64,000 nt of DNA, from NCBI RefSeq assembly GCF_000503775.1, contig NZ_KI629785.1, forward strand, positions 1,301,501-1,365,500, read 5' to 3'. Of the stretch, positions 2,801 to 25,494 are shown one piece after another. Each line of letters starts with the position of its first letter. Within the stretch, counting starts at the first letter, position 1. This DNA is from Brevibacillus panacihumi W25 (GTDB lineage Bacteria > Bacillota > Bacilli > Brevibacillales > Brevibacillaceae). The notes under the pieces are model-generated. The model was not told where the DNA came from, did not search any database, and saw nothing but the letters and a program-made list of their open reading frames with translations. The position numbers and the translations under genes are program-made.

Positions 2801-2834
2801 AAACCGTACGTGAGGTTCTCCCTCATACGGCTTT
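2801..2834 (-). ncRNA. Group II intron domain V (catalytic hairpin)
   Basis: On the minus strand AAGCCGTATGAGGG, loop AGAA, then CCTCACGTACGGTTT form the highly conserved domain V hairpin, carrying the AGC-type triad near its base and the two-base bulge before the distal stem. Just after it, GAACTGAAAGG...GTCAGTTC forms domain VI. This is the strongest sequence evidence that the surrounding element is a group II intron. Confidence 0.85.
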
Positions 2835-4166
2835 CCGATGTTCTTCTTTTCTTGGCATTCGGTTATCGCGTACGGCAAGCTTCACAAGAATTCCTCTTGT
2901 AGCTTTTGCTATCTCTCTCATCCGCGCATGTCTCGCTTGTTTATTCCTTTTCTTGTTGTTAAAGAGCACAAGTCTTGTCAGAACATACCAGTCGATGCGA
3001 CATAACCACTTAGCTCCTATGGGTGAAAGTGAGTAATAATTCTTGAAACCTTGAAGTTTTCGATTCAGCCCTTGTATCAGCTCGTCTAGTGACCAGTACA
3101 ACTTGTTGCGCGGTTTGGTATACTCTTTGATTTTCCTTCTCATTTCCTTCATAGCCTTCTTGCTCGGAATGTGTGACATGACGTACATTTTCTTTCCACC
3201 CTTGAGAAGAATGGGAAATTTTCGATGGTGTAAACCAAGGAAGTCAAAGCCCGTCGTATTGTCCCAGATATTAACCAGTCGAGACTTTTCTTTACTAAGT
3301 GTAAGGTCCAGTTTGTTTAGTACCGCTTTTATGACTTGTATACTTTCCAAAGCGTCTTGTTTCGATCTACACATGATTACAAAATCATCCGCATATCGGA
3401 TCAGCTTCCCAAGATGAGTGAATTGCTTCTCCCAAATCGTGTCCATGTAGTCCAAATAAATATTTGCCAACAGTGGAGAGATTACCCCTCCTTGCGGAGT
3501 GCCCCATTCGGTTTCATGAAACTGTACATCTTCCATGACGCCCGCACGGAGCCAGTTCCGAATCAGCTTTAGTATCCTGCGATCAGAAATCCTTTTCTCT
3601 ACTAGCTTCATGAGCTTTTCCTGATTAATGTTGTCAAAGTATCCTTTGATGTCTACATCGACTACCCAGGAGGCCGTCCTGCTGGTTTTCTTGATTTGTG
3701 TAATCGCCTGGTGGGCATTTCGTTTGGGACGGAATCCGTATGAGCAATCTTTGAAATCGGCTTCAAAGATAGGCTCAATAACCATCTTGGTTGCCATCTG
3801 AACAACACGATCTCGGATGGTCGGGATACCAAGCGGTCTTTGTTTCCCATCCGCTTTCGGGATGTACGTGCGCCGCACAGGAGATGGATGATATTGCTTA
3901 CCCTTCAGGTCGAGATAAATTTCGTTGAGAAATTTACTTTCCCCATACTCCTGAACGATTCTTTCAATTGTCTGTCCATCTATCCCGCCGCTACCTTTAT
4001 TGGCTCGAACTCTACGCCACGCTTCCGCAAGAATATCTGGCCGGTACACTTTGTCATACAGAGCATGAAATCGCCGTTTTGGATTTTCCTTGGCACAAAG
4101 ATATAGGGTTGTCCAAAGTTGTCGAGCTTTTACATTGGTGTAGTTAGCAAGTTTACTTGCATTCAC
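2823..4166 (-). CDS. ltrA: Group II intron-encoded reverse transcriptase/maturase (LtrA-like)
   Basis: 447-residue reverse transcriptase that helps splicing and retrohoming of its host intron. Visible blocks: KGSGGIDG (58-64), RRTYIPKADGKQRPLGIP (RT1/2, about 98-115), DVDIKGYFDNI (RT3, about 170-180), GTPQGGVISPLLANIYL (222-238), the active-site YADD at 258-261, then an X/thumb region (WSLDELIQGLNRKLQGFKNYY). There is no C-terminal Cys-pair HNH domain, so it is an endonuclease-lacking type. It has its own AAAGGAGGTAAG site and appears intact. Its stop lies 22 bases inside the edge of domain V, unusually close. Confidence 0.92.
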   Translation of the reverse strand: MNASKLANYTNVKARQLWTTLYLCAKENPKRRFHALYDKVYRPDILAEAWRRVRANKGSGGIDGQTIERIVQEYGESKFLNEIYLDLKGKQYHPSPVRRTYIPKADGKQRPLGIPTIRDRVVQMATKMVIEPIFEADFKDCSYGFRPKRNAHQAITQIKKTSRTASWVVDVDIKGYFDNINQEKLMKLVEKRISDRRILKLIRNWLRAGVMEDVQFHETEWGTPQGGVISPLLANIYLDYMDTIWEKQFTHLGKLIRYADDFVIMCRSKQDALESIQVIKAVLNKLDLTLSKEKSRLVNIWDNTTGFDFLGLHHRKFPILLKGGKKMYVMSHIPSKKAMKEMRRKIKEYTKPRNKLYWSLDELIQGLNRKLQGFKNYYSLSPIGAKWLCRIDWYVLTRLVLFNNKKRNKQARHARMREIAKATRGILVKLAVRDNRMPRKEEHRKAV

Positions 4167-4785: not shown

Positions 4786-5583
4786 ATGTGCAAGATCCTT
4801 CAGGTCAATAGGAGTACCTACTACTACGAGAGTAATGAGCAATCATCTGTCAATGATGAAGTAGAACAAGCAATTATCCGTATTTTTGAAGAGAATCAGC
4901 GCGTGTATGGAGCAAGGAAAATCAAAGCAAAACTTCAAGAAGAGGGAATGACGGTTTCCAGACGGCGCATTGGACGTCTGATGAAGAAAAACGGCCTGGT
5001 CTCGGTCTACACAGTGGCGCAGTATAAACCGCATATGTCGTCATGTAACGAATCGCCGATCCAGAACGAACTGAATCGCGAGTTTGCGAAAGAAGCACCA
5101 CTGGAAGCCGTTGTGAGTGACTTGACATACGTTCGGGTCGCAAATAAATGGCACTATATTTGTTTGCTCGTGGACTTATTTAATCGGGAGATCATCGGTT
5201 ACAGCTGCGGAAAATTTAAAGATGCCGCACTAGTCTATCAAGCATTTGCAAGCGTAAAAGGAGATCTACGCCAAATCCAGCTTTTTCACACAGATCGTGG
5301 CAGTGAGTTTAGAAATCTCACGATTGATGAAGTGATCAACACGTTCAAGATCAAGCGTTCATTGAGTATGAAAGGCTGTCCCTATGACAATGCAGTTGCG
5401 GAGGCAACCTTTAAGCTGATCAAAGCCGAGTTCGTGAGAAATCGCAAATTTGAATCGCTATCTCAGTTAAAGCAAGAGCTAGGAACATACGTCAAATGGT
5501 TTAACGAAGCAAGGATTCATTCCACACTAGGATATCTAAGCCCATTAGCGTACAAAGAGAAGGCACTTAAGAAATCTGTCTAG
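4786..5583 (+). CDS. IS3-family transposase OrfB (DDE integrase domain)
   Basis: 265-residue catalytic part. The N-terminal HTH_21 region (RIFEENQRVYGARKIKAKLQ) is followed by an rve-type DDE core: first Asp in VVSDLTYVR, second in FHTDRGSEF, Glu in NAVAEATFKLIKAE, and a C-terminal FNEARIHSTLGYLSP motif. The reading frame is open upstream of the ATG (TVIQQNAHKYPISA) and overlaps OrfA, so it is probably made mainly as an OrfAB fusion. No damage is seen. Confidence 0.9.
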   Translation: MCKILQVNRSTYYYESNEQSSVNDEVEQAIIRIFEENQRVYGARKIKAKLQEEGMTVSRRRIGRLMKKNGLVSVYTVAQYKPHMSSCNESPIQNELNREFAKEAPLEAVVSDLTYVRVANKWHYICLLVDLFNREIIGYSCGKFKDAALVYQAFASVKGDLRQIQLFHTDRGSEFRNLTIDEVINTFKIKRSLSMKGCPYDNAVAEATFKLIKAEFVRNRKFESLSQLKQELGTYVKWFNEARIHSTLGYLSPLAYKEKALKKSV

Positions 5584-9817: not shown

Positions 9818-11167
9818 CTACAGGTAATCCTCCAGGTTGATACCCTCGTATTGTGGAATTTTGACCCGAAGATAGCGCATCGGCTCGCTGTCCAGTGGAA
9901 TCGTACAATCGAATCCCAGCTTGGAGCCTACTCCTTCATCCGTAGAGGGATCCAGCTTCGAACCCTGGGCGCCATGGACAACTACCAGATCGCGCTCTGC
10001 CTGAAAACGCGTGGCGATCGCCCATTCCACTTCCTCCATATTAAAGATGTCGACGTCCTCATCCACCACGACGACATGCTTGATGTCGAAGCTGTTTGCC
10101 AGTGCGGCCAATATGGCGTTTTTCCCCTCGCCTTCATTTCGCTTGAGAATGGACACGATGGCATGATAACGACAGGTGCCGCCCAGGCTCATATGCACCG
10201 CCTTCACACCCGGTACCGTTTGTTTGATCGATTGCAACAAACTGGCCTCCCGCGGAATACCCCCGAGTAGAAGATGCTCATAGCCCGCTGGCACGATGGT
10301 ATAGAAGATCGGCTGATGCCGATGCGTAATCGCCATGATTTCCACGACCTCTTTATCGCTTCTCGGCCCGTAGTATTTCGGAAACTCTCCAAACGGCCCC
10401 TCTGGCTCACGTACATGCGGCAGGATTTTTCCTTCCAGCACGATTTCGGCAAAAGCAGGGACGTCGATGTCCACAGTCTCACAGCGAACGACCTCAAGCG
10501 GTTCACCTCGCAGCGCTCCCGCAATCTCCAGTTCATCTACCCCAAAGGGTGTACTTGCTTGCGACGCCAGTAGGGTCAAGGGATCGACACCGATGACAAT
10601 CGCACACTCCAGCGCCCTCCCTGCACTCTCCGCCTGTTTGTAGAGATGATAAGTATGTCTGGGGAGAAGCAACGCGCCGAGGCGATTCTTGCCCGTTACC
10701 TGCAGCCGATGAATGGAGACATTTTGCTTGCGCGTGACAGGGTCCCTGACGATGAAGAGTGCTGCAGTCAAATAGTTGCCCGCGTCCTTTTCATGATGAA
10801 CCGGAATCGGCAACAACCGCATTAGATCGATGTCCTCCCTAATGATGTTCTCCTTTACAGGAGCCTCATCATTTCCGACCTGCTTGCAGGGGAGCGGAGA
10901 TGCGACCGCATCCGTGAACCTCCTGATGACGTCATAAGGATCGGTCTCCATCGCCTCGGCAAACTGCTCCCGCGTCGAGCAGATGCCGGACACCACAGGG
11001 ATGCTGTAGTCTTCTACTTGTTTAAAAAAGGCCGCCTTCACACCGTCAAGCTTTTTTGTGACTGCTGCCAGCTCGTACTGAAGGCTGACCTGTTTCTCGA
11101 TGGTCGCAAGGCGTTCTGTCTGTCGCAAATACTCCAGCCAAGTGCGTAATGTCTGCGCTCTTCGCAT
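9818..11167 (-). CDS. UbiD-family prenyl-FMN-dependent (de)carboxylase
   Basis: 449 residues from the ATG at 11167, which follows GGAGGGGGG. UbiD enzymes reversibly decarboxylate aromatic or alpha,beta-unsaturated acids using prenylated FMN. The cofactor region NVSIHRLQVTGKNRLG is at about 149-164 and the active-site block EPEGPFGEFPKYYG at about 254-267, holding the conserved Arg/Glu residues. It lies in one operon with UbiX, which makes the cofactor. The substrate is unknown; the neighbouring dehydrogenases and CoA ligases point to a degradative rather than a ubiquinone role, since Firmicutes of this type use menaquinone. Confidence 0.88.
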   Translation of the reverse strand: MRRAQTLRTWLEYLRQTERLATIEKQVSLQYELAAVTKKLDGVKAAFFKQVEDYSIPVVSGICSTREQFAEAMETDPYDVIRRFTDAVASPLPCKQVGNDEAPVKENIIREDIDLMRLLPIPVHHEKDAGNYLTAALFIVRDPVTRKQNVSIHRLQVTGKNRLGALLLPRHTYHLYKQAESAGRALECAIVIGVDPLTLLASQASTPFGVDELEIAGALRGEPLEVVRCETVDIDVPAFAEIVLEGKILPHVREPEGPFGEFPKYYGPRSDKEVVEIMAITHRHQPIFYTIVPAGYEHLLLGGIPREASLLQSIKQTVPGVKAVHMSLGGTCRYHAIVSILKRNEGEGKNAILAALANSFDIKHVVVVDEDVDIFNMEEVEWAIATRFQAERDLVVVHGAQGSKLDPSTDEGVGSKLGFDCTIPLDSEPMRYLRVKIPQYEGINLEDYL

Positions 11168-11188
11168 GGCTTCTCCCCCCTCCTTCAA

Positions 11189-12043
11189 TTAAACACTTGC
11201 TTGTTTCCCAAAAATATCCCGGTATCTGCGCTGATACATTTTCGTCAATCTCTCGCGCCCCCTCACCTCTGGCGGGGTCGGATACTCTTTTCCGTCCACG
11301 ATGATCGGCTGGTCGTAGCGAATGAGGATATGTGGCAGGTATTCGTTGAGCAACGCATCGATACGCTTGGCGTGCAAGGGGTTTCGAGCCAGCAGTTTCA
11401 GCATGCGCAACCCGAAGCCCACATGACGCCCTTCGTCTTCCTTGATGCGGGCGAAGCCTTCTGCCAATCCGGGCAGCAAGCCTTTGCTGCCGTATACGGC
11501 TTCAAAGACTTCATACCCCGTCATGGCCTGAACTCCCTCGATGACGCCCTGATAGTGGGTCAAGCCTTCCACCAAGGCAGCCTCCCGCTCTTCTTCCCCC
11601 AGTTCCAACGCTGCAAGCATGGTTTTTACCCGATCATCCAGCTTTTGTTGCACCACATTCTTGACTCCGGATATGCGCTCCCGGCCAAATACCTCCTGAA
11701 AATAACGCATGAAAAATTGCGTATGCTTGAATTCCTCCAGCAATTGCGTGCTTAAGAACGCCTGTTGCTCCGTCGAGGAACCCAGCATGATCCACGGGCA
11801 GAATTTCAGGGCGACATTCTCCTCCGCATCCAAAAAACCGGTGCAGAAGTGGATCAGATAACCCTTGAGGTCCTCATCCAGCTCTGCAAAATCCTTTTTG
11901 TCCCGTGTCAGATCAATCGAGGCAGGGTCCCAGGTGCCAAAACGGATCGCCTTTCGATACAAATCCCATGCCACCTCATCCGTGGATTTGTCGAGACCTA
12001 AAATCAGATCGTCAGCAGTCGTCATATTGACTTGCTCCTTCAT
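11189..12043 (-). CDS. R2-like ligand-binding oxidase (R2lox, Mn/Fe ferritin-like)
   Basis: 284-residue ferritin-like protein related to ribonucleotide reductase R2 but without any nrdA-like partner here. Metal ligands expected of R2lox are visible: E74 in FLDAEENV, E104/H107 in LLEEFKH, E169 in GVIEG, E204/H207 in KEDEGRH. V77 and Y164 occupy the positions of the Val-Tyr ether crosslink pair of known R2lox proteins. These use a Mn/Fe centre and bind a fatty-acid-like ligand, with unknown physiological substrate. It sits between UbiD and an alcohol dehydrogenase in one operon, suggesting an oxidation of the pathway substrate. Start may be the ATG at 12043 or the next at 12025; both have good sites. 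Confidence 0.85.
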   Translation of the reverse strand: MKEQVNMTTADDLILGLDKSTDEVAWDLYRKAIRFGTWDPASIDLTRDKKDFAELDEDLKGYLIHFCTGFLDAEENVALKFCPWIMLGSSTEQQAFLSTQLLEEFKHTQFFMRYFQEVFGRERISGVKNVVQQKLDDRVKTMLAALELGEEEREAALVEGLTHYQGVIEGVQAMTGYEVFEAVYGSKGLLPGLAEGFARIKEDEGRHVGFGLRMLKLLARNPLHAKRIDALLNEYLPHILIRYDQPIIVDGKEYPTPPEVRGRERLTKMYQRRYRDIFGKQASV

Positions 12044-12073
12044 TTTTCATTCCCCCTCAACGAAATGAAATGA

Positions 12074-13240
12074 TTAAAACGCTTTTTGCAAAAGCTCCAG
12101 GACTTCCTGCTCGGTCGGCAGCCGAGGATTCCATTTCATCATGCCGCTTTTAAAGGAGTCTTTGGCGATGTCGACCAGCTTTGCTTCTGGAACACCCACT
12201 TCCTGCAGTCTTTGCGGGAGACCAATATCTTGGACAAGCTGACCAACCAATTCAGCTGCCGTTCCCGTTTCTTTCTGAACGCTGCCCAGAACATCTGCGA
12301 TCAACTCCGCTTTTTCCGGACGTACAGGTGTATTGAACGCCACCACATGCGGCAGCAGCAAGCCAATAGCAACCCCGTGCGGAACGTGGCAATGTCCCGA
12401 GAGCGCGCTTCCGATAGCATGAGCAAGGCCTAAGAAGCCGTTGTTAAATGCCATCCCGGCCAGCACGCTGCCCTGGGACATTCCGATCCGTGCTTCCATG
12501 TCTGCTCCGTCTCGAACCGCTCGGCGCAAATGCGGCGCAATCATCTTCATCGCATGGATGGCGAGGGCATCGGAAGCCGGGCTGGAACGCAGGGAAAAAA
12601 ACGTCTCAATCCCGTGGGCCAGCGCGTCAATTCCAGTCGCAGCCGTCATTTTTGCCGGCAAGCTCAACGTCAGGGCAGGATCGATCAAGGCGGTCGATGG
12701 AGCCATATGCGGGCTTGTTACGGTTATCTTGACGTGGTTCTCCCAGTCGGAATAAACTCCGAAGATCGTCACCTCGCTCCCCGTGCCGGAAGTGGTCGGA
12801 ATTGCAATCAACGGGATCGCGGATGCTGCAGGGACGCGATTGACGCCCGCATACTGGCCGATGCCGCCGCCATTTGCCGCCAACACGCGAATTCCCTTGG
12901 CCGTATCGATCGGACTGCCTCCCCCGATCGCCACCATGCAGTCGAAGGACTGCTGCTGGAACATGGCTGCACCCGCTTGGATGGTCTCCAGACTGGGGTC
13001 AGGCTCGACATCGGCGTAGATCTGGAAATGAAGCCCTTTTTCTTCCAGTGAGTGTATCACTTCATCCAAAAGTCCCGCCTGTCGCACTCCTTGATCTGTG
13101 ACGAGGAAGACGCGGCGTACGCCCATCGACAAAAGCATCTCTCCAAGACGGGATGCGCTGCCCACCCCGAACTGGACGTTGGTGGGCAAGTGAAAGGAAA
13201 AAGGAGATTCGATTCCCTGCACGCTTTGATTCGCACTCAT
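12074..13240 (-). CDS. Iron-containing (group III) alcohol dehydrogenase
   Basis: 388-residue NAD(P)-dependent alcohol dehydrogenase. GGGSPIDTAKGI (about 103-114) binds the dinucleotide, TTSGTGSEVT follows near 147, and the metal-binding His/Asp set lies in HGIETFFS and GLAHAIGSALSGHCHVPHG. Its ATG overlaps the aldehyde dehydrogenase stop by 4 bases (ATGA), so the two are coupled and probably act in series, alcohol to aldehyde to acid. Nothing appears damaged. Substrate cannot be told from sequence alone. Confidence 0.9.
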   Translation of the reverse strand: MSANQSVQGIESPFSFHLPTNVQFGVGSASRLGEMLLSMGVRRVFLVTDQGVRQAGLLDEVIHSLEEKGLHFQIYADVEPDPSLETIQAGAAMFQQQSFDCMVAIGGGSPIDTAKGIRVLAANGGGIGQYAGVNRVPAASAIPLIAIPTTSGTGSEVTIFGVYSDWENHVKITVTSPHMAPSTALIDPALTLSLPAKMTAATGIDALAHGIETFFSLRSSPASDALAIHAMKMIAPHLRRAVRDGADMEARIGMSQGSVLAGMAFNNGFLGLAHAIGSALSGHCHVPHGVAIGLLLPHVVAFNTPVRPEKAELIADVLGSVQKETGTAAELVGQLVQDIGLPQRLQEVGVPEAKLVDIAKDSFKSGMMKWNPRLPTEQEVLELLQKAF

Positions 13241-14712
13241 CGGTCTTCCCTCCCCTCTTCGCTCGGCAAGTCATCTATTTCAAAATGAATATGCTTCGTC
13301 TCGCAGTATTCCATCAGTCCATCCACGCCCCGGGTGCGGCCTAATCCGCTCTGCTTGTAGCCCCCGAACTCTGCCTCCGGGAAATTTTTATTGTACGTAT
13401 TGATCCAGACCGTCCCCGCGCGGATTCCTTTCGACATGCGCATTGCCCGATTCAGGTCACGAGTCCACACCCCTGCCGACAGGCCGAAGTCTGAGTCATT
13501 CGCCATCTCGAGTGCCTCTTCTTCCCTCGCAAAGCTTTGAACGGCGAGCACCGGACCAAATATTTCCTCGCGCACGACGCGGCAATGCGAAGGCAACTCA
13601 TCGATGATCGTCGGTGCAAAAAAGCTTCCCTGATCAAATGCTCCGCCTGTAATCCGCTGGCCCCCCGTGACGATTTTTCCTTCGCTCCGTCCAATTTCAC
13701 AGTAATTGGCGATTAGCTCCAACTGAGCCTGATTGACGACCGGTCCCATGTCGGTCGACTCTTCCAATCCATTGCCGACACGCAGATTCTCCGCGTATCG
13801 CTTCATGCGCGACAAGACCTCGCCTTTTACGGATTCATGTACAAGCAGCCGCGAACCAGCCATGCAGATCTGCCCCGCAGAGATGAAAATGGAACGGCCG
13901 ATCACAGGAATGGCCTTGTCAAGATCGGCATCTGCAAATACCACATTGGGAGATTTTCCGCCCAATTCCAGCGCCAGCTTCTTGATATTGCTGGTGGCCA
14001 TCTCCATGATCTGTTTACCTGTTGATGTATCGCCCGTGAAACTGATCATATCCATCTTCTTGCTCGTCCCCATTGCAGCCCCAATACTTCGGCCGGGACC
14101 TGTCACGATACTGACAATACCCTTGGTGAACTGCGGCACCTGATCAATCAGTTTGAATATTTCAACAGATATAGCTGGCGTGAGGCTAGCCGGTTTTACC
14201 AGCACCGCATTGCCCGCCGCGAGTGCCGGAGCAAGCTCCCGAATCATCAAAAGCGCAGGCCAATTCCACGGCGATATGATCCCGACTACGCCGATCGGCT
14301 CCTTGGTGATGACGCCAAAATTATGCGGCTCCAGTTGCACAGAGCGGCCAAACACCGTCCGTGCCGCACCTGCGAAATACTTTAGCGTATCGACACAGCC
14401 GGCCAGCTCCTGGCGGGATTCCTTGATCGTCTTTCCCTGCTCGCGGGTTAGAATGACAGCGAGGCGTTCGAGCTGCTCCTCCATTTTTTGCGCCAAGCCA
14501 AGCAATGCTTCATAACGCCTCTTGGGATTGTATCCCCAATCGCTTCTCTGAAAGACTTCGTACATTTTGTCTATCGCTTGCTCCACGTCCTGAACTGCAG
14601 AGTTCTGTGCGTATCCTACCAGCTCCCCCGTAGCAGGATTAAAAGATTCCAACCACTCTCCCGAAACGGAGGACGTCCACTCTCCGCCAATGTAATTGTA
14701 ATATCGGGTCAC
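13237..14712 (-). CDS. NAD(P)-dependent aldehyde dehydrogenase
   Basis: 491 residues from a GTG at 14712 placed after GGGAGGGG; the alternative ATG at 14757 lies inside ubiX and has no site. Oxidises an aldehyde to its acid. The Rossmann contact ISPWNWPALL is at about 147-156, general base E249 in LALELGGKSPN and the nucleophile C283 in SAGQICMAGS. The GTG overlaps the ubiX stop (GTGA), and its own stop overlaps the alcohol dehydrogenase start, making a tightly coupled ubiX-aldH-adh block. Confidence 0.9.
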   Translation of the reverse strand: MTRYYNYIGGEWTSSVSGEWLESFNPATGELVGYAQNSAVQDVEQAIDKMYEVFQRSDWGYNPKRRYEALLGLAQKMEEQLERLAVILTREQGKTIKESRQELAGCVDTLKYFAGAARTVFGRSVQLEPHNFGVITKEPIGVVGIISPWNWPALLMIRELAPALAAGNAVLVKPASLTPAISVEIFKLIDQVPQFTKGIVSIVTGPGRSIGAAMGTSKKMDMISFTGDTSTGKQIMEMATSNIKKLALELGGKSPNVVFADADLDKAIPVIGRSIFISAGQICMAGSRLLVHESVKGEVLSRMKRYAENLRVGNGLEESTDMGPVVNQAQLELIANYCEIGRSEGKIVTGGQRITGGAFDQGSFFAPTIIDELPSHCRVVREEIFGPVLAVQSFAREEEALEMANDSDFGLSAGVWTRDLNRAMRMSKGIRAGTVWINTYNKNFPEAEFGGYKQSGLGRTRGVDGLMEYCETKHIHFEIDDLPSEEGREDR

Positions 14713-15299
14713 CTGTACCCCTCCCTCTTTTTTTCTCCTTGCTCCATACCCTGCCATCTCTCAAACAGATGGGCTTCCAGACGAAATTGGTCGAGAGCCT
14801 TCTGCACGCTTTGATTCACGATGTCGTCGATGCTTTGCGGAAGATGGTAAAAAGACGGGACCGGGGGGAGAATGATTCCTCCCATCTGCGTGACCGCGAG
14901 CATCTGCTGGATATGGCCGAGGTGGAGCGGCGTCTCACGCAGCATCAGCACCAGCTTTCTGCGTTCCTTCAATTGCACATCCGCGGCTCTCGTCAACAGC
15001 TCGCTATTGTAGCTGTTGGCGATTCCGGAGAGGGTTTTGATGGAACATGGCGCAACGATCATGCCGTCGACCAGATACGAGCCGCTGGAAATCGCAGCCC
15101 CCAGATCCTGGTTGTCGTATACCTTGCTCGCCATCCTCCGCAAATCTTCCATCCGGTAATTCGTTTCGTACTCGATCGTGCGAATCGCTGTGCTGCTTAC
15201 CACCAGATGAACCTCCACGCCCAATTTGCAGCATTGCTCTACGATCCGCACGCCATAAATGGCTCCGCTCGCCCCCGAAATCCCTACCACGAGTCGCAT
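14709..15299 (-). CDS. ubiX: UbiX-family flavin prenyltransferase
   Basis: 196-residue UbiX/Pad1 enzyme that joins a dimethylallyl group to FMN, making the prenyl-FMN used by UbiD. N-terminal GISGASGAIYGVR, the FMN-contact region MIVAPCSIKTLSGIANSYNSELLTRAADV at about 78-106, and LMLRETPLHLGHIQQML are all characteristic. The C-terminal 20 residues are longer and more charged than in compact UbiX proteins. Its presence in the same operon as UbiD makes a self-sufficient decarboxylase module. Confidence 0.93.
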   Translation of the reverse strand: MRLVVGISGASGAIYGVRIVEQCCKLGVEVHLVVSSTAIRTIEYETNYRMEDLRRMASKVYDNQDLGAAISSGSYLVDGMIVAPCSIKTLSGIANSYNSELLTRAADVQLKERRKLVLMLRETPLHLGHIQQMLAVTQMGGIILPPVPSFYHLPQSIDDIVNQSVQKALDQFRLEAHLFERWQGMEQGEKKREGYR

Positions 15300-15314
15300 G
15301 ACAACCTCCTCTCG

Positions 15315-16655
15315 TTATTCAAAATTGCCCTTGGTCTCCGGTATCACCAAGCTGCCGATTACATACACCACAAACACGGCGATTGAAAAGCCCATTAGCG
15401 AGTAAGGAATATTTTCGGTCGTTCCGCTCGCCAGCGTGACAAAGGTAGGCATCATGCCCCCGACCGCAAAGCCCATGTTCCAGGAAAGACCTGTTCCGCT
15501 CGACCGGATCGATGTCGGGAAGCGTTCATTGAGAAAAATCAGGATCGGGGCATAAGCTGCATTGCCCAAAAATGCCAGCGCGAGGGCGTAGAAGGTGATC
15601 ATCGGGATTGAGGTTGCGCTTCCCAATTGAATGAAGAGAACAGGCAACAGAATCAGATTGATGAAGCCAATGAGCAAAAAGGTCTTTTTCCTGCCGATTA
15701 CATCACTGAGATAGCCAAACAAGACGGCCGAAATGATGGCGCTTACACTTGCTCCCATGAGAATCAGAGAAGCGGTACCGCTGGACACCTTATTGATGAC
15801 ATTCAGGAAAGTAGGCAAATAACCGGATGTGAGATAGTAAGCAGTTCCGCCGCCGGTCACGAGCATGAGATTGACCAAAAGCACATTCCGGTATTGCGTG
15901 AAAATCATTTTGACAGGCGACCCCTCCGGTTTTTTCGCCGCTTCCTTTTTTTGCTGGGCTTGCAGCCACAACGGGGATTCCTCCAGCGATTTGAAAACAA
16001 ACACGCCTAGCACAGCGCTGAGGATGCCGGCAAAAAACATAAATCTCCAGCCCCATGCATCAAACGCTTCGCCGGGAAATGCTTCAGAGACAATAAAGTA
16101 GACGATGGAAGCGAGCAAAGCGCCCAGACCTGCACCTCCGCCCCCGACAAACCCGGACATGAATCCGCGCCATTTTGGCGGGACCGATTCTGTACCGATC
16201 GTATGCGTCGAGGCAACCACGCCGCCTACAAAAATGCCCTGCACCAGCCTGAGAATCAAAAAGATGATCGATGCACCGACACCAATCTGATGTACCGTCG
16301 GCAATGCTCCAAACAAGGCCGTGGCTACGCCGACACCGATGACAGCCACAATCATGGCTTTTTTGCGCCCTTTTCGGTCCGCGTACGAACCAAACAAAGC
16401 GGAGCCGATCGGCCGCATCAGTAGTGTGACGGCGAAGGAAGCATAGACAGCTGCCAGGGAAAGCGTAGGCAGCTCGGTGGGAAAAAAGAGCTTGCCAATC
16501 ACAGGTGCCACATAAAGAAGGACAAAGAGATCAAACAAATCAAGAGCCCATCCCAGAAGAGATGCGATCGATGCATTTACCATCTGGCGGCGGCTGATCT
16601 CTACCTTCGGCGGCTGATTGCTGGAAAGCACCGTCGTACTGTTTGTCATGGACAT
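15315..16655 (-). CDS. MFS organic/aromatic-acid:H+ symporter
   Basis: About 446-residue, 12-span major facilitator. LLGWALDLFDLFVLLYVAP in span 1 and the loop 2-3 motif GSYADRKGRKKAM are typical of metabolite:H+ symporters that import aromatic and other carboxylates. I prefer the ATG at 16655, 8 bases after GGAGG; one at 16661 is also possible. It is the first gene of the ubiX/ubiD operon, so it is the probable entry point for the pathway substrate. Confidence 0.85.
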   Translation of the reverse strand: MSMTNSTTVLSSNQPPKVEISRRQMVNASIASLLGWALDLFDLFVLLYVAPVIGKLFFPTELPTLSLAAVYASFAVTLLMRPIGSALFGSYADRKGRKKAMIVAVIGVGVATALFGALPTVHQIGVGASIIFLILRLVQGIFVGGVVASTHTIGTESVPPKWRGFMSGFVGGGGAGLGALLASIVYFIVSEAFPGEAFDAWGWRFMFFAGILSAVLGVFVFKSLEESPLWLQAQQKKEAAKKPEGSPVKMIFTQYRNVLLVNLMLVTGGGTAYYLTSGYLPTFLNVINKVSSGTASLILMGASVSAIISAVLFGYLSDVIGRKKTFLLIGFINLILLPVLFIQLGSATSIPMITFYALALAFLGNAAYAPILIFLNERFPTSIRSSGTGLSWNMGFAVGGMMPTFVTLASGTTENIPYSLMGFSIAVFVVYVIGSLVIPETKGNFE

Positions 16656-16684
16656 GTTCATAACCTCCAATCATCTATTGTTGA

Positions 16685-16731
16685 AGCGGAGCCCAGGCTC
16701 GGGTATTCGCTTTGTCAGCCCCGAGCCTCCC
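16685..16731 (-). other. Hairpin between the enoyl-CoA hydratase and MFS genes
   Basis: Minus-strand GGCTCGGG pairs with CCCGAGCC across a 16-base loop. There is no T tract, so it is more likely an mRNA-stabilising or processing hairpin, or a weak factor-dependent end, than a classical terminator. It marks the joint between the cox/ligase block and the ubi block. Confidence 0.5.
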
Positions 16732-16736
16732 CTCTC

Positions 16737-17543
16737 TTACTTCCCGGTAAAATTCGGCTTCCGTTTTTCGTTGAAGGCCTCTACCCCTTCACGGAAGTCG
16801 TCCGTGCTGCGCAGCATGCCATAGGCATAGCCTTCGATCTCCAGCCCCGCGCTCAGTGATCCCTCTTGGGAGGCGTTCAACACCTGCTTCAAGACGCGCA
16901 GGGCAAGCGGCGAGTATTCCAGCAGCTCGTCGACGAGATCTGCTACAGCCTGCTCCAGTTTTTCCTGCGGCACGACTGTAGTGAGCAGCCCCCATTGATA
17001 CGCTTCTGCGGCTGGAATTCGTCTACCGCGCATGATCATATCCTTGGCGCGTCCCAAGCCTGCCAGTCTGGCGATTCGTTGGGTGCCGCCGCTTCCCGGA
17101 ATCATGCCAAGCTTGATCTCCGGCAGGGCGAGCAATGTCGTATCGGAAGCGACGCGGAAATCACACGCCATGGCGATCTCCAGCCCCACGCCGAAGGTAT
17201 AGCCTTGCAGTTGAGCAATCACCGGCTTTGGCGAGCGTTCCGGAGCGGCAACATTTTTATGGAGAACAGACAGCTCCTCAGGGTGGCGTTCCATGAACTG
17301 TGCAATCGTGCCCCCCGAAGAAAAAGCCTGGGTTCCCTCCCCTTTCAGCACGATGACACGCACATCATCGTCTTCGTTCAGCTCCTGGAAAATCTGGTTC
17401 AACTGGGAGCGGCCGATAAAGCTGAGCGTATTCATTTTTTCCGGACGATCCAGGATGATGGTCGCGGTCTTTTTTTCCGCGTTTTTCTCGACGCGAATGT
17501 GATCCCACTGCGTAGCTGCGAGGCTGCTTGTTTGTTTTTCCAT
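16737..17543 (-). CDS. Enoyl-CoA hydratase/isomerase family protein
   Basis: 268-residue crotonase-fold enzyme adding water to, or isomerising, an enoyl-CoA. The oxyanion-hole region AFSSGGTIAQF is near 73-83 and both catalytic Glu positions are filled (VGLEIAMACDFRVAS and LPEIKLGMIPGSGGTQR), supporting hydratase activity. The start codon overlaps the stop of the upstream acyl-CoA ligase, so CoA activation and hydration are translationally linked. A ring-opening hydrolase of the same fold cannot be ruled out. Confidence 0.88.
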   Translation of the reverse strand: MEKQTSSLAATQWDHIRVEKNAEKKTATIILDRPEKMNTLSFIGRSQLNQIFQELNEDDDVRVIVLKGEGTQAFSSGGTIAQFMERHPEELSVLHKNVAAPERSPKPVIAQLQGYTFGVGLEIAMACDFRVASDTTLLALPEIKLGMIPGSGGTQRIARLAGLGRAKDMIMRGRRIPAAEAYQWGLLTTVVPQEKLEQAVADLVDELLEYSPLALRVLKQVLNASQEGSLSAGLEIEGYAYGMLRSTDDFREGVEAFNEKRKPNFTGK

Positions 17544-19102
17544 TACGAAACACTCTCCTTTTTTGTTGGGCTTGGTTGAGCGTAGCCATCCCGAAGCATC
17601 CGCCGCAGGATTTTTCCGACGGGACTTTTGGGGATCGAATCTACCAAAACGTACTTTCTCGGTCTCTTGAAGTTGGACAAATGCTTGCTTTGTCGGCAGA
17701 ATTCGTCCAGCTCCTCAGCGTTTAACTGGGGATCATGGGCGACGATAAAGGCCGTTACGACTTCTCCCCATCGCTGATCGGGCAACCCCACCACAGCTAC
17801 CTCCGCGACCTTGGGATGCTTGGCGATGACATCCTCCACCTCCAACGGGTGGATGTTTTCTCCCCCGGAGATAATCATGTCGTCCACGCGCCCCAGGACA
17901 TACAGGTCGCCGTCTTCATCGAAGCTCCCCATGTCTCCCGTGAAGTACCAGCCCTCACGAATGGCCTTGCGCGTAGCGTCGGGACGATTCCAATATCCCT
18001 GAAAGGCTTCCTGGGAACGCAAATCCACGATGATCTCTCCCGGAACCCCTGTCTGGACCACATCCTCAGGAGTGGAACCTCCATCCGGGTCTGCCACGAC
18101 GACGCGCAATCGCTGGTGAAAGCCCGGCTTCCCCGCACACCCCGGCTTGCGGTCGAGATAATCACAGATGGAAAAGGTGTATACCTCTGATGAGCCGTAG
18201 TGGTTGACGAACACCTTGGGCTTTAGCTTGGCGAAGATTTCCTCTGTCAGGGCCTTGGTCATCGCTGCTCCGGCATAGCCCAGTTTTTTGAGAGAAGAGA
18301 GATCGTATTGAGCGAACTTAGGATGATAGACAAGATCGTGAAAAATGGTAGGAACGAGATACACGCATGAGAGCTTTTCTTTTTCCAGCGTCTCCAGGAC
18401 CGTCTCCGCATCGTAATCAGGCGTCATGACCATCTTGCCGTTCAGCAATGCGATGGAGAGGAGGGAGCGCATGCCCATGGTGTGGTATAGCGGCATGACC
18501 CCAATCGTGCTTTCCTGAAAGACATACTGATTTTGAATGATGTGGGCGACAGCGGCGCTGTACTCATTGCGATGGGTTCGCGGAACGCCCTTGGGCCTTC
18601 CGGTCGTGCCGGAGGTGTACAGCATCAGGCAGAGATCATCTCCGTCGCTTTCGCTTCGCACAAGCGGTTGCTTGCTCTTGTGCCGCAGCTCCTCGTACTG
18701 GATGTCTGCTCCCCTCGCTTGCAGGACGGCCACCTTGATCGTATCCATTCCATGCACGGCCGCAAGAACGGCATGCTCGCTGACCGGTTCATAGATGACA
18801 GCCTTTGCCTGCGCATCTTTGACGCAATATTCAATCTCTTCTGCCGTCAATCGGAAGTTGATTGGAGTGAACACGGCGCCGATCTTTTGAATCGCCCAGT
18901 ACAGGATGACCATTTCCAGACGATTTTTTAGTACGAGGACGACGCGGTCATGTCTTTTAATTCCGAGGGACTGCAGACCAGCTGCGGCATGGTCGACCTC
19001 CTGATTCAGTTCGGCGTAAGTAAATCGTTTTTCGCCTTGTACGAGTGCCTCATACTGTGGGTGTCGTTCGACTGCAAATTGAAACAGGGTCCCCAGATTC
19101 AC
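17543..19102 (-). CDS. AMP-forming acyl-CoA ligase (ligase 1)
   Basis: 519-residue class I adenylate-forming enzyme making a CoA thioester from a carboxylate and ATP. P-loop YTSGTTGRPKGVPRTH at about 160-175, adenine contact NHYGSSEVYTFS near 283, and hinge YVLGRVDDMIISGGENIHP near 405. The GTG at 19102 is preferred since it lies 8 bases after GGAAGG and gives the same NLGT start as the paralogue at 25495. It overlaps the 3' end of the iron-sulfur subunit gene by about 50 bases. The substrate acid is unknown. Confidence 0.9.
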   Translation of the reverse strand: MNLGTLFQFAVERHPQYEALVQGEKRFTYAELNQEVDHAAAGLQSLGIKRHDRVVLVLKNRLEMVILYWAIQKIGAVFTPINFRLTAEEIEYCVKDAQAKAVIYEPVSEHAVLAAVHGMDTIKVAVLQARGADIQYEELRHKSKQPLVRSESDGDDLCLMLYTSGTTGRPKGVPRTHRNEYSAAVAHIIQNQYVFQESTIGVMPLYHTMGMRSLLSIALLNGKMVMTPDYDAETVLETLEKEKLSCVYLVPTIFHDLVYHPKFAQYDLSSLKKLGYAGAAMTKALTEEIFAKLKPKVFVNHYGSSEVYTFSICDYLDRKPGCAGKPGFHQRLRVVVADPDGGSTPEDVVQTGVPGEIIVDLRSQEAFQGYWNRPDATRKAIREGWYFTGDMGSFDEDGDLYVLGRVDDMIISGGENIHPLEVEDVIAKHPKVAEVAVVGLPDQRWGEVVTAFIVAHDPQLNAEELDEFCRQSKHLSNFKRPRKYVLVDSIPKSPVGKILRRMLRDGYAQPSPTKKESVS

Positions 19103-19598
19103 GTACTTCACCTTCCTTCCTTCGATCGGCCACTTGCTGCACGGCCTCTACGATTCCCTTGTAGCCCGTGCATCTGCACAAGTGACCGGACAACATATCG
19201 GCAATTTCCTCCTTGCCCGGATCGGCATGAGTCTGCAAAAACTCGACGGAGGACATCAGGATGCCTGGCGTGCAAAATCCGCATTGCAGGGCGTGACATT
19301 CCGAGAACGCTTCCTGCAGGGGGTGGGGTTTCCCATCCTTCGCCAATCCCTCTACTGTCGTGATGTCGGCGCCTTCCGCCTGAATCGCCAGGATCAGACA
19401 GCTGCGAACCGCTCTGCCGTCCACCAGCACTGTGCAAGCTCCGCATACGCCGTGTTCGCAGCCGACATGCGTGCCCGTCAAGCCGCAGTCCTCCCGCAGA
19501 AAATCGCTCAACAGCTTTCGGGGTTCGACCTGTTCCTCATAGCGCTTGCCGTTTACCTGCAAGCGCAGGCTGTATCGTTCCTCGCGCTTTACCTGCAT
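19050..19598 (-). CDS. Molybdenum hydroxylase small (2Fe-2S) subunit, CoxS-like
   Basis: 182 residues from an ATG that shares one base with the preceding stop (TGATG). Two [2Fe-2S] clusters: a plant-type set C47, C52, C55, C67 (CEHGVCGAC...C) and a second set C106, C109, C141, C143 (CGFC...CRC). It carries electrons from the molybdenum site to FAD. The C-terminal 25 residues run past the usual end of the family and overlap the ligase gene. Confidence 0.92.
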   Translation of the reverse strand: MQVKREERYSLRLQVNGKRYEEQVEPRKLLSDFLREDCGLTGTHVGCEHGVCGACTVLVDGRAVRSCLILAIQAEGADITTVEGLAKDGKPHPLQEAFSECHALQCGFCTPGILMSSVEFLQTHADPGKEEIADMLSGHLCRCTGYKGIVEAVQQVADRRKEGEVRESGDPVSICSRTTPTV

Positions 19599-20485
19599 CA
19601 CGTCGCACTCCCCTTTCCCAATACCGCGCGATGGTAGGCGGTCTCCAACACCCGTGCCGCAAATACCTGGGCCAGGTGGAGGCGATACTCCCTGCTGGCG
19701 TGCAGATCCCCTTCCGGATCGATATCGGCTGCCGCTGCACGGCTCGCTTCCAGCAGCAGCGAATCCGTCAGCTTTTCGCCGAGGATGAGACCCTCCACCT
19801 CGCGGGCCAGCACCGGAACCGCATCTACTCCGCCCAAAGTCAGCCTGACGGAAGCGATCCGCTCCTGTTCGTCGACATCGAGTACACATGCCGCCGAAAC
19901 CAGTGCAAAATCTCCGTGTTTGCGGCTGTACTCCTGGAATGAGTAGCCTTTGGGTATATGCCTTGTGGGGATTTTCACCTCACGCAGTATCTCGTTCGGC
20001 ATGAGATCCGTCGTCAGATAGGTGATGAAGAAATCCTCCACGTCCACTGCCCGAATTTCCTCCGCGCTTTGGATGACGACTGCAGCTTGCAATGCCAACA
20101 GGGACAAGGGAATCTCGGCCGTCGGATCGGCGTGGACGAGGCTGCCCCCGAAAGTGCCGCGATTGCGCGTCTGCATATGCCCGATGTAGGGCAAGGCCTC
20201 CGCAAGCAGCGGTGTTTTTTCTCTGACAAGAGCGGACCTCTCTACGTCCCTTTGCCTGGTCAACGCTCCGATGTGCAGCCAGTCCCCTTCCTCCCGGATG
20301 TACTTCAATTCTTCCAGTCCGCTGATATCGATCAGGCACTCGGGCGTGGACAGGCGCATGTTGAGGATCGGGACCAGACTCTGCCCTCCGGCGATCAGCT
20401 TCCCTTCCTCGCCGTACTCCTGCAAGTATTGGCACGCCTCCTCCACCGTGGAGGGACGAAGATAATCAAATGCTGCCGGTTTCAT
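19598..20485 (-). CDS. Molybdenum hydroxylase FAD-binding medium subunit, CoxM-like
   Basis: 295 residues from the ATG at 20485 after GGAGGGG. FAD contacts are AGGQSLVPILNMR near 31-43 and TRNRGTFGGSLVHADPTAE near 105-123, both diagnostic of CoxM/CutM-type flavoproteins. It accepts electrons from the iron-sulfur subunit and passes them to oxygen, quinone or another acceptor. Next to coxG and coxS with short or overlapping junctions. Confidence 0.92.
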   Translation of the reverse strand: MKPAAFDYLRPSTVEEACQYLQEYGEEGKLIAGGQSLVPILNMRLSTPECLIDISGLEELKYIREEGDWLHIGALTRQRDVERSALVREKTPLLAEALPYIGHMQTRNRGTFGGSLVHADPTAEIPLSLLALQAAVVIQSAEEIRAVDVEDFFITYLTTDLMPNEILREVKIPTRHIPKGYSFQEYSRKHGDFALVSAACVLDVDEQERIASVRLTLGGVDAVPVLAREVEGLILGEKLTDSLLLEASRAAAADIDPEGDLHASREYRLHLAQVFAARVLETAYHRAVLGKGSAT

Positions 20486-20507
20486 CTCTATCCCCTCCGA
20501 ATTTTTG

Positions 20508-20963
20508 TCAGGCTGTTTTTTGTTCCTTATCCACATGCTTCTTCAGCTTTTTGAAAAAATCCGTAATCAGCAGCTTGGCGACGCCGCCCAGCATCCGTTG
20601 ACCGATCGAGGCCACCTTTCCCCCTACCTCGGCTGTGTAAGTATAAGTGAGCGTCGTGCTGCCATCCTCTCCGGGGGCCAGTTCGATCAGTCCTTCTGCC
20701 TCGACAAAGCCTGGCGCTCCTTCGCCCCGTACAATCAGCTTGTAGCTTTTTCGCTCGATCACATCTGCCAATTGAATCGTGGCATCGTATTTTCCTTTGA
20801 CCGCCGCTACTCCGACAGCCAGATCCGCACGGTATTTGCCATCCTCCACAAGCACCAGCTCCTTGCAGCCCATCATGCACTCGGCCAGCACTTCCGGATC
20901 CAGGATCTTCGCCCATACCTGCTCCACTGTCGCGTTCAGCTCGACAGAACCATTGCCGTTCAT
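20508..20963 (-). CDS. CoxG-like SRPBCC protein (maturation or anchoring of the Mo hydroxylase)
   Basis: 151 residues from an ATG that overlaps the large-subunit stop by 4 bases (ATGA), after AAGGAGGAATACGC. It begins MNGNGSVELNATVEQVWAKI and shows the SRPBCC/CoxG pattern DPEVLAECMMGCKEL then a C-terminal helix (QRMLGGVAKLLITDFFKKL). CoxG proteins in CO dehydrogenase systems bind membrane or quinone components. Its place between the large and medium subunits is unusual; coxM-S-L order is more common. Confidence 0.85.
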   Translation of the reverse strand: MNGNGSVELNATVEQVWAKILDPEVLAECMMGCKELVLVEDGKYRADLAVGVAAVKGKYDATIQLADVIERKSYKLIVRGEGAPGFVEAEGLIELAPGEDGSTTLTYTYTAEVGGKVASIGQRMLGGVAKLLITDFFKKLKKHVDKEQKTA

Positions 20964-23386: not shown

Positions 23387-23492
23387 TCGCTGCTTCCTCC
23401 TCTCTTTTATCTGGTAAAATTTGTAGTTTTCGCATGTGAATACTGAGGTTTTTGAGCAACAGACTCCACAAGCCATATCCAGCCTGGAACGG

Positions 23493-24593
23493 TTATGACT
23501 TCGCTGCCAGAAGAGGTTCCTTGCGCCGCTCATGCAAGGGCTCGCTTCTTCCTTTCAGGGATAGCCCGCTGCGTCCGCTGCGGCAACTGCTGATCTCTGC
23601 CAAAATGCTCAGCGCGATTTCCTCGGGGGAATCAGCACCGATGTCCAGTCCTACAGGAGCATGCAGCTTGTTTCGCTCATCCTGATCGAATCTTCCTCGC
23701 TCTTCGCTGATCTCCCGCAGGATCTGCTCCGTGCGTCTGCGCGGACCAAGCACGCCCAGATACGGAATGGGCGACTCCATCAATCGTCTGAGCAGCATCA
23801 GATCCAGCTCATACTGATGAGTCATCACGACGACATAGGCATCCTCCCTCACGGAGATGGATCCATACTCCTGCCGAGCAACCAGCACCACCTCGTCCGC
23901 ATCGGCAATGACCGGATGCCGGAGGGACAGTTGGCGATGATCGATCACCGTCACATGCCAGCCTAGCTCTCGCGCTCCCCGCACGAGCGGTACGGCGTCC
24001 GGCCCAGCGCCGCAGATGACCAGCGGCGTTCGCGGCTGTATCGTTTCTGCAAAAAGGGTAATCTCCACTTCGTCCCTGATCACTTGGTACAGCCCTTTCG
24101 CCTGCGCAGGCAGTCCGAGGGTTTGCTGTTCATCCTGATCGAGGAAAAACACACTCCCCACAGGCTGCTTGGCTGGATCACCGGTCTGGATGATGACGCC
24201 GCTCATGCACACCTCTCGGGTCATCGCCTTTGCCTCATAGATGTGAAAAAGCTGTTCGGCTTGGTGGGGAGCGTGCTTGGGATCATAGGGCTGAAGCAGG
24301 ATTTGCATCGCACCGTTGCAGCCAACCCCAAGTCCCCAGAGCAGATCCTCTTCCGCACGGAAATCGTAGCGATGCACCGCAGGTCTTCCTGTCTGCAGCA
24401 CATGCCTGGCATGCTCAAGCAAGTCACTTTCGACGCAGCCCGCGCTCAGTGTCCCGATCACTTCCCCGTGTTCCAGGAGGAGACACGCTGCTCCTTCCCT
24501 CCTGTACGTAGAACCCTCGACATGAATGATCGTCGCCACGACTCCGCGCTCCCGGCTTTGCAGACAACGCTTCAATCCGCGGTATACTTCCAT
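23493..24593 (-). CDS. XdhC/CoxI-family molybdenum cofactor maturation protein
   Basis: About 366 residues. XdhC proteins bind and sulfurate the molybdenum cofactor before inserting it into xanthine-oxidase-family enzymes. N-terminal XdhC_CoxI domain (EGSTYRREGAACLL, TLSAGCVESDL, GLGVGCNGAMQILLQP at about 90-105) and a Rossmann XdhC_C domain (LVICGAGPDAVPLVRGARELGWHV, then YLGVLGPRRRT). Upstream of the large subunit by about 107 bases. The C-terminal tail (RSEPLHERRKEPLLAAKS) is charged and not conserved. Confidence 0.9.
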   Translation of the reverse strand: MEVYRGLKRCLQSRERGVVATIIHVEGSTYRREGAACLLLEHGEVIGTLSAGCVESDLLEHARHVLQTGRPAVHRYDFRAEEDLLWGLGVGCNGAMQILLQPYDPKHAPHQAEQLFHIYEAKAMTREVCMSGVIIQTGDPAKQPVGSVFFLDQDEQQTLGLPAQAKGLYQVIRDEVEITLFAETIQPRTPLVICGAGPDAVPLVRGARELGWHVTVIDHRQLSLRHPVIADADEVVLVARQEYGSISVREDAYVVVMTHQYELDLMLLRRLMESPIPYLGVLGPRRRTEQILREISEERGRFDQDERNKLHAPVGLDIGADSPEEIALSILAEISSCRSGRSGLSLKGRSEPLHERRKEPLLAAKS

Positions 24594-24704
24594 CACCTCT
24601 GCATCACCTCACATCGGGAAGTAGCGTGCTTGAAACTATAATAGGAATATTTCGAATTATGCGGTTTTAAATTCTTCGCATCCTCATCTTGAGATTTTTG
24701 CTTT

Positions 24705-25478: not shown

Positions 25479-25494
25479 CAGGATCCCCTCTTTC

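Follow-up and report, generated by a model that had tools for sequence, protein, structure and literature searches.

An R2-like ligand-binding oxidase subfamily linked to HmfF in Bacillota and its possible role as a 5-methyl-furan hydroxylase

Introduction

The presence of a gene for an R2-like ligand-binding oxidase (R2lox) in a catabolic operon of Brevibacillus panacihumi W25 raises the question of which reaction such a protein contributes to the pathway encoded around it. The physiological function of R2lox is stated as unknown (PMC6399176, PMC4118035), and in 2024 alkanes were proposed as substrates of the paralogue GkR2loxI (PMC10867098). As described in that paper, the work on GkR2loxI (GK2771) used crude lysate and measured substrate loss, and its double ligand mutant still retained some activity (PMC10867098). 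For these reasons it is weak evidence and does not settle the matter of the substrate. The statement of an earlier sequence-only reading of this locus, that R2lox has no firmly assigned substrate, is thus partly out of date. The locus was analysed here in the window, i.e. the whole stretch of 64,000 nucleotides from contig NZ_KI629785.1.

Results and discussion

Identification of the R2lox protein

The product of the ORF at 11189-12043 scored 241.7 bits against the NCBIfam model NF006200, 'R2-like ligand-binding oxidase' (cut-off 194), and its top match among PDB sequences was GkR2loxI (4HR0, E 7.2e-27). An AlphaFold2 model of the protein was built with 32 aligned sequences as input (mean pLDDT 89.8), and the first 34 rows of a Foldseek search with this model were all R2lox structures. 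With a second structural aligner, the first 27 rows were R2lox (Z 27.0-30.2) and RNR R2 proteins came next, from Z 26.4 down; by Z, the bottom of the R2lox rows and the top of the RNR R2 rows are level in this model comparison. Identity as an RNR R2 subunit was ruled out by the NCBIfam ranking together with the residue at the position of GkR2loxI A171, which is Phe in RNR R2 proteins (PMC6399176) and an invariant Ala (A173) in the R2lox proteins of the window type. Hence, as judged by sequence and modelled fold, the assignment as an R2lox is confirmed. An ORF on the opposite strand, at 11201-11755 inside the same stretch, was taken as six-frame noise.

The metal ligands E74, E104, H107, E169, E204 and H207 (four Glu, two His) were invariant in the alignment, in 34/34 members of the window's subfamily and in 21/21 R2loxI-type proteins, and the residues of the ether cross-link pair, V77 and Y164, were likewise invariant in both sets. 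The sequence-only reading had held that the ligands and this pair appear conserved, which is borne out, including its numbering of Val77 and Tyr164. The metal centre would presumably be a dinuclear Mn/Fe site.

The tree, built from 59 distinct proteins, has a branch of support 97/96 that separates 21 R2loxI-type proteins and that of locus L114 from 34 proteins of the window type. The latter form three groups, the joining of which is not resolved in the tree, and the program warns of long branches. Residues N76, W84, Q100, F105, H163, Q165, G166 and Q172 differ from those of the R2loxI type in 34/34 proteins, the R2loxI type having A, L, F, A, V/T/I, N, M/L and L, respectively. Among the ligand-adjacent positions, N76, Q100, F105, H163 and Q172 are polar or aromatic in the window type, whereas the residues found there in R2loxI are hydrophobic or small. 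With the pocket lining taken from the alignment, not from coordinates, these replacements are read as a shift in which a greasy channel for fatty acids has given way to a pocket that is smaller and more polar.

The R2lox gene lies in a furan catabolism operon

The R2lox gene is part of a ~17 kb run of genes (9818-27039) on one strand, in which the ends of successive listed ORFs are never more than 108 bp apart (Table 1). As listed, the ORF for the UbiD protein (TTG start) abuts the R2lox ORF, and the gene for the iron-containing alcohol dehydrogenase (Fe-ADH) lies 30 bp upstream of R2lox, so that the gene does sit between a UbiD and an alcohol dehydrogenase, as had been noted from the sequence earlier. 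The true start of the UbiD gene is probably the ATG at 11167, behind a Shine-Dalgarno-like stretch, which would leave 21 bp to R2lox; the gap between the two genes is also 21 bp in the 98% identical relative at locus L023. A group II intron reverse transcriptase and an integrase-type transposase are encoded on the downstream side of the operon, at 2823-4166 and 4786-5583 of the window.

Table 1. Genes of the operon and the products or roles proposed for them.
Position	Strand	Product or proposed role	Basis or remark
9818-11188	minus	HmfF, UbiD-type prFMN 2,5-furandicarboxylate (FDCA) decarboxylase	PDB match; furan-specificity His is residue 305
11189-12043	minus	R2lox, proposed 5-methyl-furan hydroxylase	ATG start, 284 aa; NCBIfam, PDB, alignment, model
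12074-13240	minus	Iron-containing alcohol dehydrogenase (Fe-ADH); hydroxymethyl-furoate dehydrogenase proposed (PsfG/HmfH role)	Role by analogy with P. umsongensis
13237-14757	minus	Aldehyde dehydrogenase (ALDH); formyl-furoate dehydrogenase proposed (PsfA role)	Role by analogy with P. umsongensis
14709-15299	minus	UbiX flavin prenyltransferase (HmfG/PsfC role)	
15315-16670	minus	MFS carrier, HmfT role proposed	Best subfamily model metabolite/H+ symporter, below cut-off
16737-17543	minus	Enoyl-CoA hydratase family, HmfE role proposed	
17543-19111	minus	AMP-forming acyl-CoA ligase, HmfD (furoyl-CoA synthetase) role proposed	
19050-19577	minus	[2Fe-2S] subunit, HmfC role proposed	Place matches annotated (2Fe-2S) protein of pHTA426; identity from gene order, not domain search; start estimated from 174-aa relatives (ORF runs 19050-19889)
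19598-20536	minus	FAD subunit of molybdenum hydroxylase, HmfB role proposed	
20508-21053	minus	CoxG-like protein	
20960-23533	minus	Molybdenum large subunit, HmfA (furoyl-CoA dehydrogenase) role proposed	
23493-24596	minus	XdhC-type maturation factor	
24705-25478	minus	Response regulator with AraC-type HTH	
25495-27039	minus	Second AMP-forming ligase-like protein	

Searches with the UbiD protein returned 6H6V and 6H6X, which we take to be HmfF of Pelotomaculum, at 557.6 and 548.5 bits (E 1.8e-166 and 1.1e-163), and the next UbiD enzyme at 206.6 bits. The alignment with 6H6V spans 445 residues, and the catalytic motif residues and the His associated with furan specificity are alike in the two proteins. 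Among the UbiD structures of PMC8379154 is 6H6V, and the paper speaks of an HmfF structure and cites work on FDCA. A His key to the furan specificity of HmfF is H297 (PMC7976604), which was taken as the same residue as position 296 of the PDB chain and aligns with H305 of the UbiD ORF in the window. This His is kept in every aligned UbiD of the related cassettes described below in which the stretch is present (hmfF being broken at L037, its pieces were aligned apart); the position is occupied by Asn in genome G034 (locus L064) and by Glu in 9/9 aligned UbiDs of a group with 41-46% identity. As judged by these features, the UbiD protein is HmfF, being closest to the solved HmfF among UbiD enzymes and having the furan His. 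The vanillate decarboxylase VdcC was also considered for this gene and ruled out, since the score of 324.1 bits is below the cut-off of 650 and the HmfF structures score far better.

Because its UbiD is HmfF, the operon can be named, almost certainly, as one for furan catabolism. Its other genes fit the furoyl-CoA pathway, and the parts of an hmf-type set are present, namely the molybdenum hydroxylase, CoA ligase, HmfE-like hydratase, carrier, HmfF, UbiX, and Fe-ADH with ALDH. The roles proposed in Table 1 rest on likeness to the cluster of P. umsongensis GO16. Although a monooxygenase depends on a supply of two electrons, none of the scanned operon genes was recognisable as an electron-transfer partner, which speaks against the hydroxylase role proposed in Table 1.

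Related loci

A scan of contigs with the window R2lox gave 21 named loci with proteins 72-98% identical, spanning Brevibacillus, Aneurinibacillus, Paenibacillus, Thermoflavimicrobium, Domibacillus, Peribacillus, Neobacillus, Fictibacillus and Bacillus. The order MFS, ALDH, Fe-ADH, R2lox, UbiD is shared by 20 of the 21, with UbiX inserted between MFS and ALDH in L023, and with one gene preceding UbiD in the Fictibacillus loci L037, L039 and L040 (a sodium:solute symporter in the two scanned). The exception is L036, where a 66% identical HmfF is encoded elsewhere in the genome. In all, hmfF accompanies this R2lox in 21/21 named genomes, though the copy at L037 is broken, and parts of the Mo/CoA pathway lie within 15 of the 21 loci. 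The split in the latter hmfF gene (Fictibacillus terranigra, L037:12293-13707) is a frameshift or an assembly error, and the R2lox ORF there is open. In Paenibacillus naphthalenovorans, the cassette is followed downstream by another set of molybdenum hydroxylase genes (L026:16183-20546).

Plasmid pHTA426 of Geobacillus kaustophilus HTA426 carries a complete furan set with a second R2lox, WP_011229500.1, for which no published function was found in a search of the open-licence PMC literature. In a plasmid collection, R2lox (E up to 1e-15) was found in three records, pHTA426 and two haloarchaeal plasmids. UbiDs related to that of the window (E up to 1e-60) were found in 167 records of the same collection, 166 of them below 60% identity, so that not all need be HmfF. 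As far as sampled, the link between R2lox and HmfF was seen only in Bacillota.

Co-occurrence of R2lox with HmfF

A set of 398 Bacilli genomes chosen independently of R2lox was examined for both genes. A UbiD of at least 61% identity was found in 21 genomes, with the furan His in 20 and Asn in G034. The R2lox subfamily (at least 54% identity) was present in 17 genomes, all within the 20 with a furan-type HmfF, and in 0/378 others (Fisher p 3.6e-27, which is too small as related genomes are treated as independent). By genus, the subfamily was present in 10/11 versus 0/134 (p 1.3e-14, which shared descent likewise makes too small). The 17 positive genomes fall under nine family labels. In G375 an internal TAG does not break the R2lox gene, as a 294-aa ORF covers the match. 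After the subfamily, the next R2lox match is only 41% identical (G102), followed by matches of at most 39%, i.e. of the GkR2loxI type, and in 59 further genomes only matches at this level were found. Both kinds of R2lox occur in six sampled genomes (G009, G051, G067, G088, G125 and G145).

Fe-ADH is no more than 3 kb away from R2lox in 32 of 34 loci, ALDH in 31 and UbiD in 30, and R2lox is at most 300 bp from HmfF in 25. The UbiD gene is more than 3 kb away or missing in L036, L109, L110 and L111, the last being a 4.9-kb contig. In G197 and G092, R2lox is near Fe-ADH and not near UbiD, and in G035, where the cassette is without R2lox, the R2lox gene is ~2.1 Mb away by coordinates.

A relative of the furoyl-CoA ligase (at least 59% identity, with only the best three candidates per genome scored) was found in 15 genomes. 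The R2lox subfamily was present in 12/12 of those with a furan-type HmfF and in 0/3 of those without (G177, G211 and G313). R2lox thus goes with the upper part of the furan pathway, that of HmfF, on the small number of three genomes in the second group.

The furan-type HmfF occurs without the R2lox subfamily in 3 of the 20 genomes, G128 (one contig), G147 and G232 (drafts of 100 and 280 contigs), in which the MFS carrier (two overlapping ORFs in G147), ALDH, Fe-ADH and HmfF are retained. The absence of R2lox from otherwise conserved clusters, which the sequence-only reading had said would refute its proposal, was therefore seen in part, in these three cassettes and in the unlinked arrangement of G035. 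These cassettes speak against an obligate role of R2lox in the core HMF route, but not against an accessory entry step. In all three, nickel-cofactor genes lie near the cassette in place of the Mo/CoA genes, and because of this the absence of R2lox may reflect another way of life and not dispensability beside the Mo/CoA route. G217, which has the same genus label as G147, has R2lox together with nickel-type genes.

Given this co-occurrence, the linkage and the separate branch in the tree, the best explanation is that the window gene represents a distinct R2lox subfamily dedicated to furan catabolism, and it is very probable that R2lox belongs to the furan pathway.

Nickel-type cassettes and an Asn variant of the HmfF-like UbiD

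HmfF cassettes without nearby Mo/CoA genes were observed at L122:1709-14085, L093, L097, L099/L123, L101, L104 and L106/L121. With varying completeness, they include genes for the nickel-pincer cofactor proteins LarB, LarC and LarE, a NicO nickel transporter and a 4Fe-4S/BFD protein, as well as a 2-oxopent-4-enoate hydratase-like protein, an acylating acetaldehyde dehydrogenase and a DmpG-type aldolase. Also among their genes is one for a protein of ~480 aa that has no Pfam or NCBIfam match and is 81-88% identical among five; its predicted fold was poor (pLDDT 34.3), and comparison with one LarA and with PDB chains brought no credible match. No LarA was found in the nickel-type cassettes, the nearest being ~23 kb away in G128. 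Possibly, these cassettes represent a second, nickel-dependent opening of 2-furoate to a C5 dienoate.

The HmfF-like UbiD of G034 (L064/L108) is 61% identical and has Asn at the position of the furan His. UbiX is present, and no recognised carrier, ADH, ALDH or R2lox was found in the 20 kb fetched. This UbiD may act on another heteroaromatic acid.

Proposed reaction of R2lox

In P. umsongensis GO16, deletions placed the alcohol dehydrogenase PsfG in the conversion of HMFCA to FFCA and the aldehyde dehydrogenase PsfA in that of FFCA to FDCA (PMC12064950). As an alcohol and an aldehyde dehydrogenase perform these steps there, and cassettes without R2lox exist, R2lox would supply something else and looks like an extra entry step of the furan route. 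The presence of Fe-ADH and ALDH, and the R2lox-free cassettes, would place it one step earlier, at the conversion of a methyl group to an alcohol. Hydroxylation of the 5-methyl group of 5-methyl-2-furoate (or 5-methylfurfural) is thus the favoured reaction, held with evenly balanced confidence. The MFS carrier would take up 5-methyl-2-furoate, with 5-methylfurfural as the alternative substrate, and R2lox would use O2 at its dinuclear, presumably Mn/Fe, site to form the 5-hydroxymethyl compound. Fe-ADH and ALDH would oxidise this compound to FDCA, from which HmfF, with prFMN made by UbiX, would strip the new carboxylate as CO2 to leave 2-furoate, which would be converted via furoyl-CoA to 2-oxoglutarate. 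The ring substituent would pass through the sequence CH3, CH2OH, CHO, COOH and CO2. From HMFCA to 2-furoate and onward, the route follows published work on other bacteria.

The sequence-only reading had predicted oxidation of a C-H bond to an alcohol that the next two enzymes take to an acid. This fits the logic of Fe-ADH, ALDH and UbiD, and the HmfF and furan operon make it specific. Further support for C-H hydroxylation as a general R2lox reaction comes from the ALDH and Fe-ADH genes that adjoin R2loxI-type genes, GK2771 included. Among seven R2loxI-type loci fetched, R2lox lies beside ALDH and Fe-ADH in L113 and L115, beside Fe-ADH in L118 and beside ALDH in L119; L112 and L117 are without such neighbours, and L116 has them only at some distance.

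Extension of the proposal to the whole subfamily, as an O2-dependent 5-methyl hydroxylation of a furan acid by an Mn/Fe (or Fe/Fe) enzyme that opens a 'demethylation' branch in the furan catabolism of Bacillales, is a tentative step, a little short of an even likelihood. To our knowledge, such a branch has not been described. Furan compounds arise when plant sugars are heated, and 5-methylfurfural forms from deoxy-sugars in heated biomass. The analysis found no link between 5-methyl-furans and these organisms, and searches of the open-licence PMC literature found no paper on degradation of 5-methylfurfural or on 5-methyl-2-furoic acid, none on R2lox together with furan, and none on a ligand-binding oxidase with UbiD in a gene cluster.

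Alternative roles

An alternative that keeps R2lox on the HMF route is an alcohol or aldehyde oxidase converting HMFCA to FFCA or FDCA, with the work of HmfH done with O2. R2lox occupies the place of HmfH or PsfG in other clusters, and a search of 21 genomes found no HmfH-type GMC oxidoreductase (PF00732) adjacent to HmfF; PF00732 is present in 12 of these, with the closest full match that shares a contig with HmfF ~46 kb off (G128), and several draft genomes have theirs on other contigs. Such a reaction would also demand less external reductant. However, the dehydrogenases that perform these steps in GO16 (PMC12064950) have counterparts close to R2lox in nearly all loci (Fe-ADH in 32/34, ALDH in 31/34), and G128, G147 and G232 have Fe-ADH, ALDH and HmfF without R2lox, which makes this role unlikely. 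It is also improbable that the substrate is another 5-substituted furan, such as 5-methoxymethyl-furoate (by O-demethylation), 2,5-dimethylfuran or a longer 5-alkyl furan. The linked MFS carrier of a small-metabolite kind and the polar ligand neighbours favour a small carboxylate, and longer chains would not give HMFCA, although the same co-occurrence with HmfF applies, these compounds could feed HMFCA or FDCA, and R2lox proteins whose structures have been studied hold a long-chain fatty acid as ligand (PMC6399176).

R2lox might instead serve HmfF itself, by oxidative maturation of prFMN or by removal of O2 near a decarboxylase that is described as oxygen-sensitive (PMC8379154). This would suit a gene that tracks HmfF and lies at most 300 bp from it in 25/34 loci, but R2lox is near Fe-ADH and not UbiD in G197 and G092, is unlinked in G035, and has several R2loxI-type relatives near ALDH or Fe-ADH without UbiD, while R2lox is absent from the HmfF cassettes of three Bacilli genomes and from the cluster of GO16; a service role is thus very unlikely. 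Least probable of all is an alkane or fatty-acid hydroxylase present in the operon by chance, given the co-occurrence with HmfF, the split from the R2loxI type, the altered active-site neighbourhood and the six sampled genomes that hold both R2lox kinds. Its basis is the report that GkR2loxI consumes alkanes and that its gene is near ADH/ALDH genes (PMC10867098). The 5-methyl hydroxylation of a furan remains the preferred reading.

Comparison with known systems

The hmf clusters of P. umsongensis GO16 and, as cited in the same paper, Cupriavidus basilensis HMF14 are like the window operon in having HmfF, UbiX, a carrier, ALDH, a furoyl-CoA ligase, the molybdenum hydroxylase and HmfE (PMC12064950). 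The gene table for GO16 lists HmfABC, HmfD, HmfE, HmfF, a UbiX, HmfT, PsfG and PsfA, and R2lox is absent from that table (PMC12064950). In place of the Fe-ADH of the window, these clusters have the short-chain PsfG or the oxidoreductase HmfH (PMC12064950), and the R2lox of the window is an addition.

GkR2loxI (4HR0) shares with the window R2lox the fold (Z 28.9, rmsd 3.0 over 254 residues), the six metal ligands, the Val/Tyr pair and the equivalents of A171 and Y175, and its gene also adjoins ADH and ALDH genes (PMC10867098). It differs in its low identity (28% in the structural alignment), its clade, its hydrophobic or small ligand neighbours, and its location in a beta-oxidation cluster as opposed to an HmfF pathway.

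With a subfamily tied to one defined pathway and a short list of candidate substrates, the function of an R2lox can be approached by growth tests and LC-MS. If the proposal is true, catalytic C-H hydroxylation would be added to what R2-type Mn/Fe proteins do, and 5-methylfurfural would gain a point of entry into the pathway. G. kaustophilus is a named organism with both R2lox kinds. Its plasmid-borne WP_011229500.1 is 61.9-63.0% identical to the window R2lox, belongs to the same subfamily and, like it, lies inside a complete furan cluster, in which the gene order differs.
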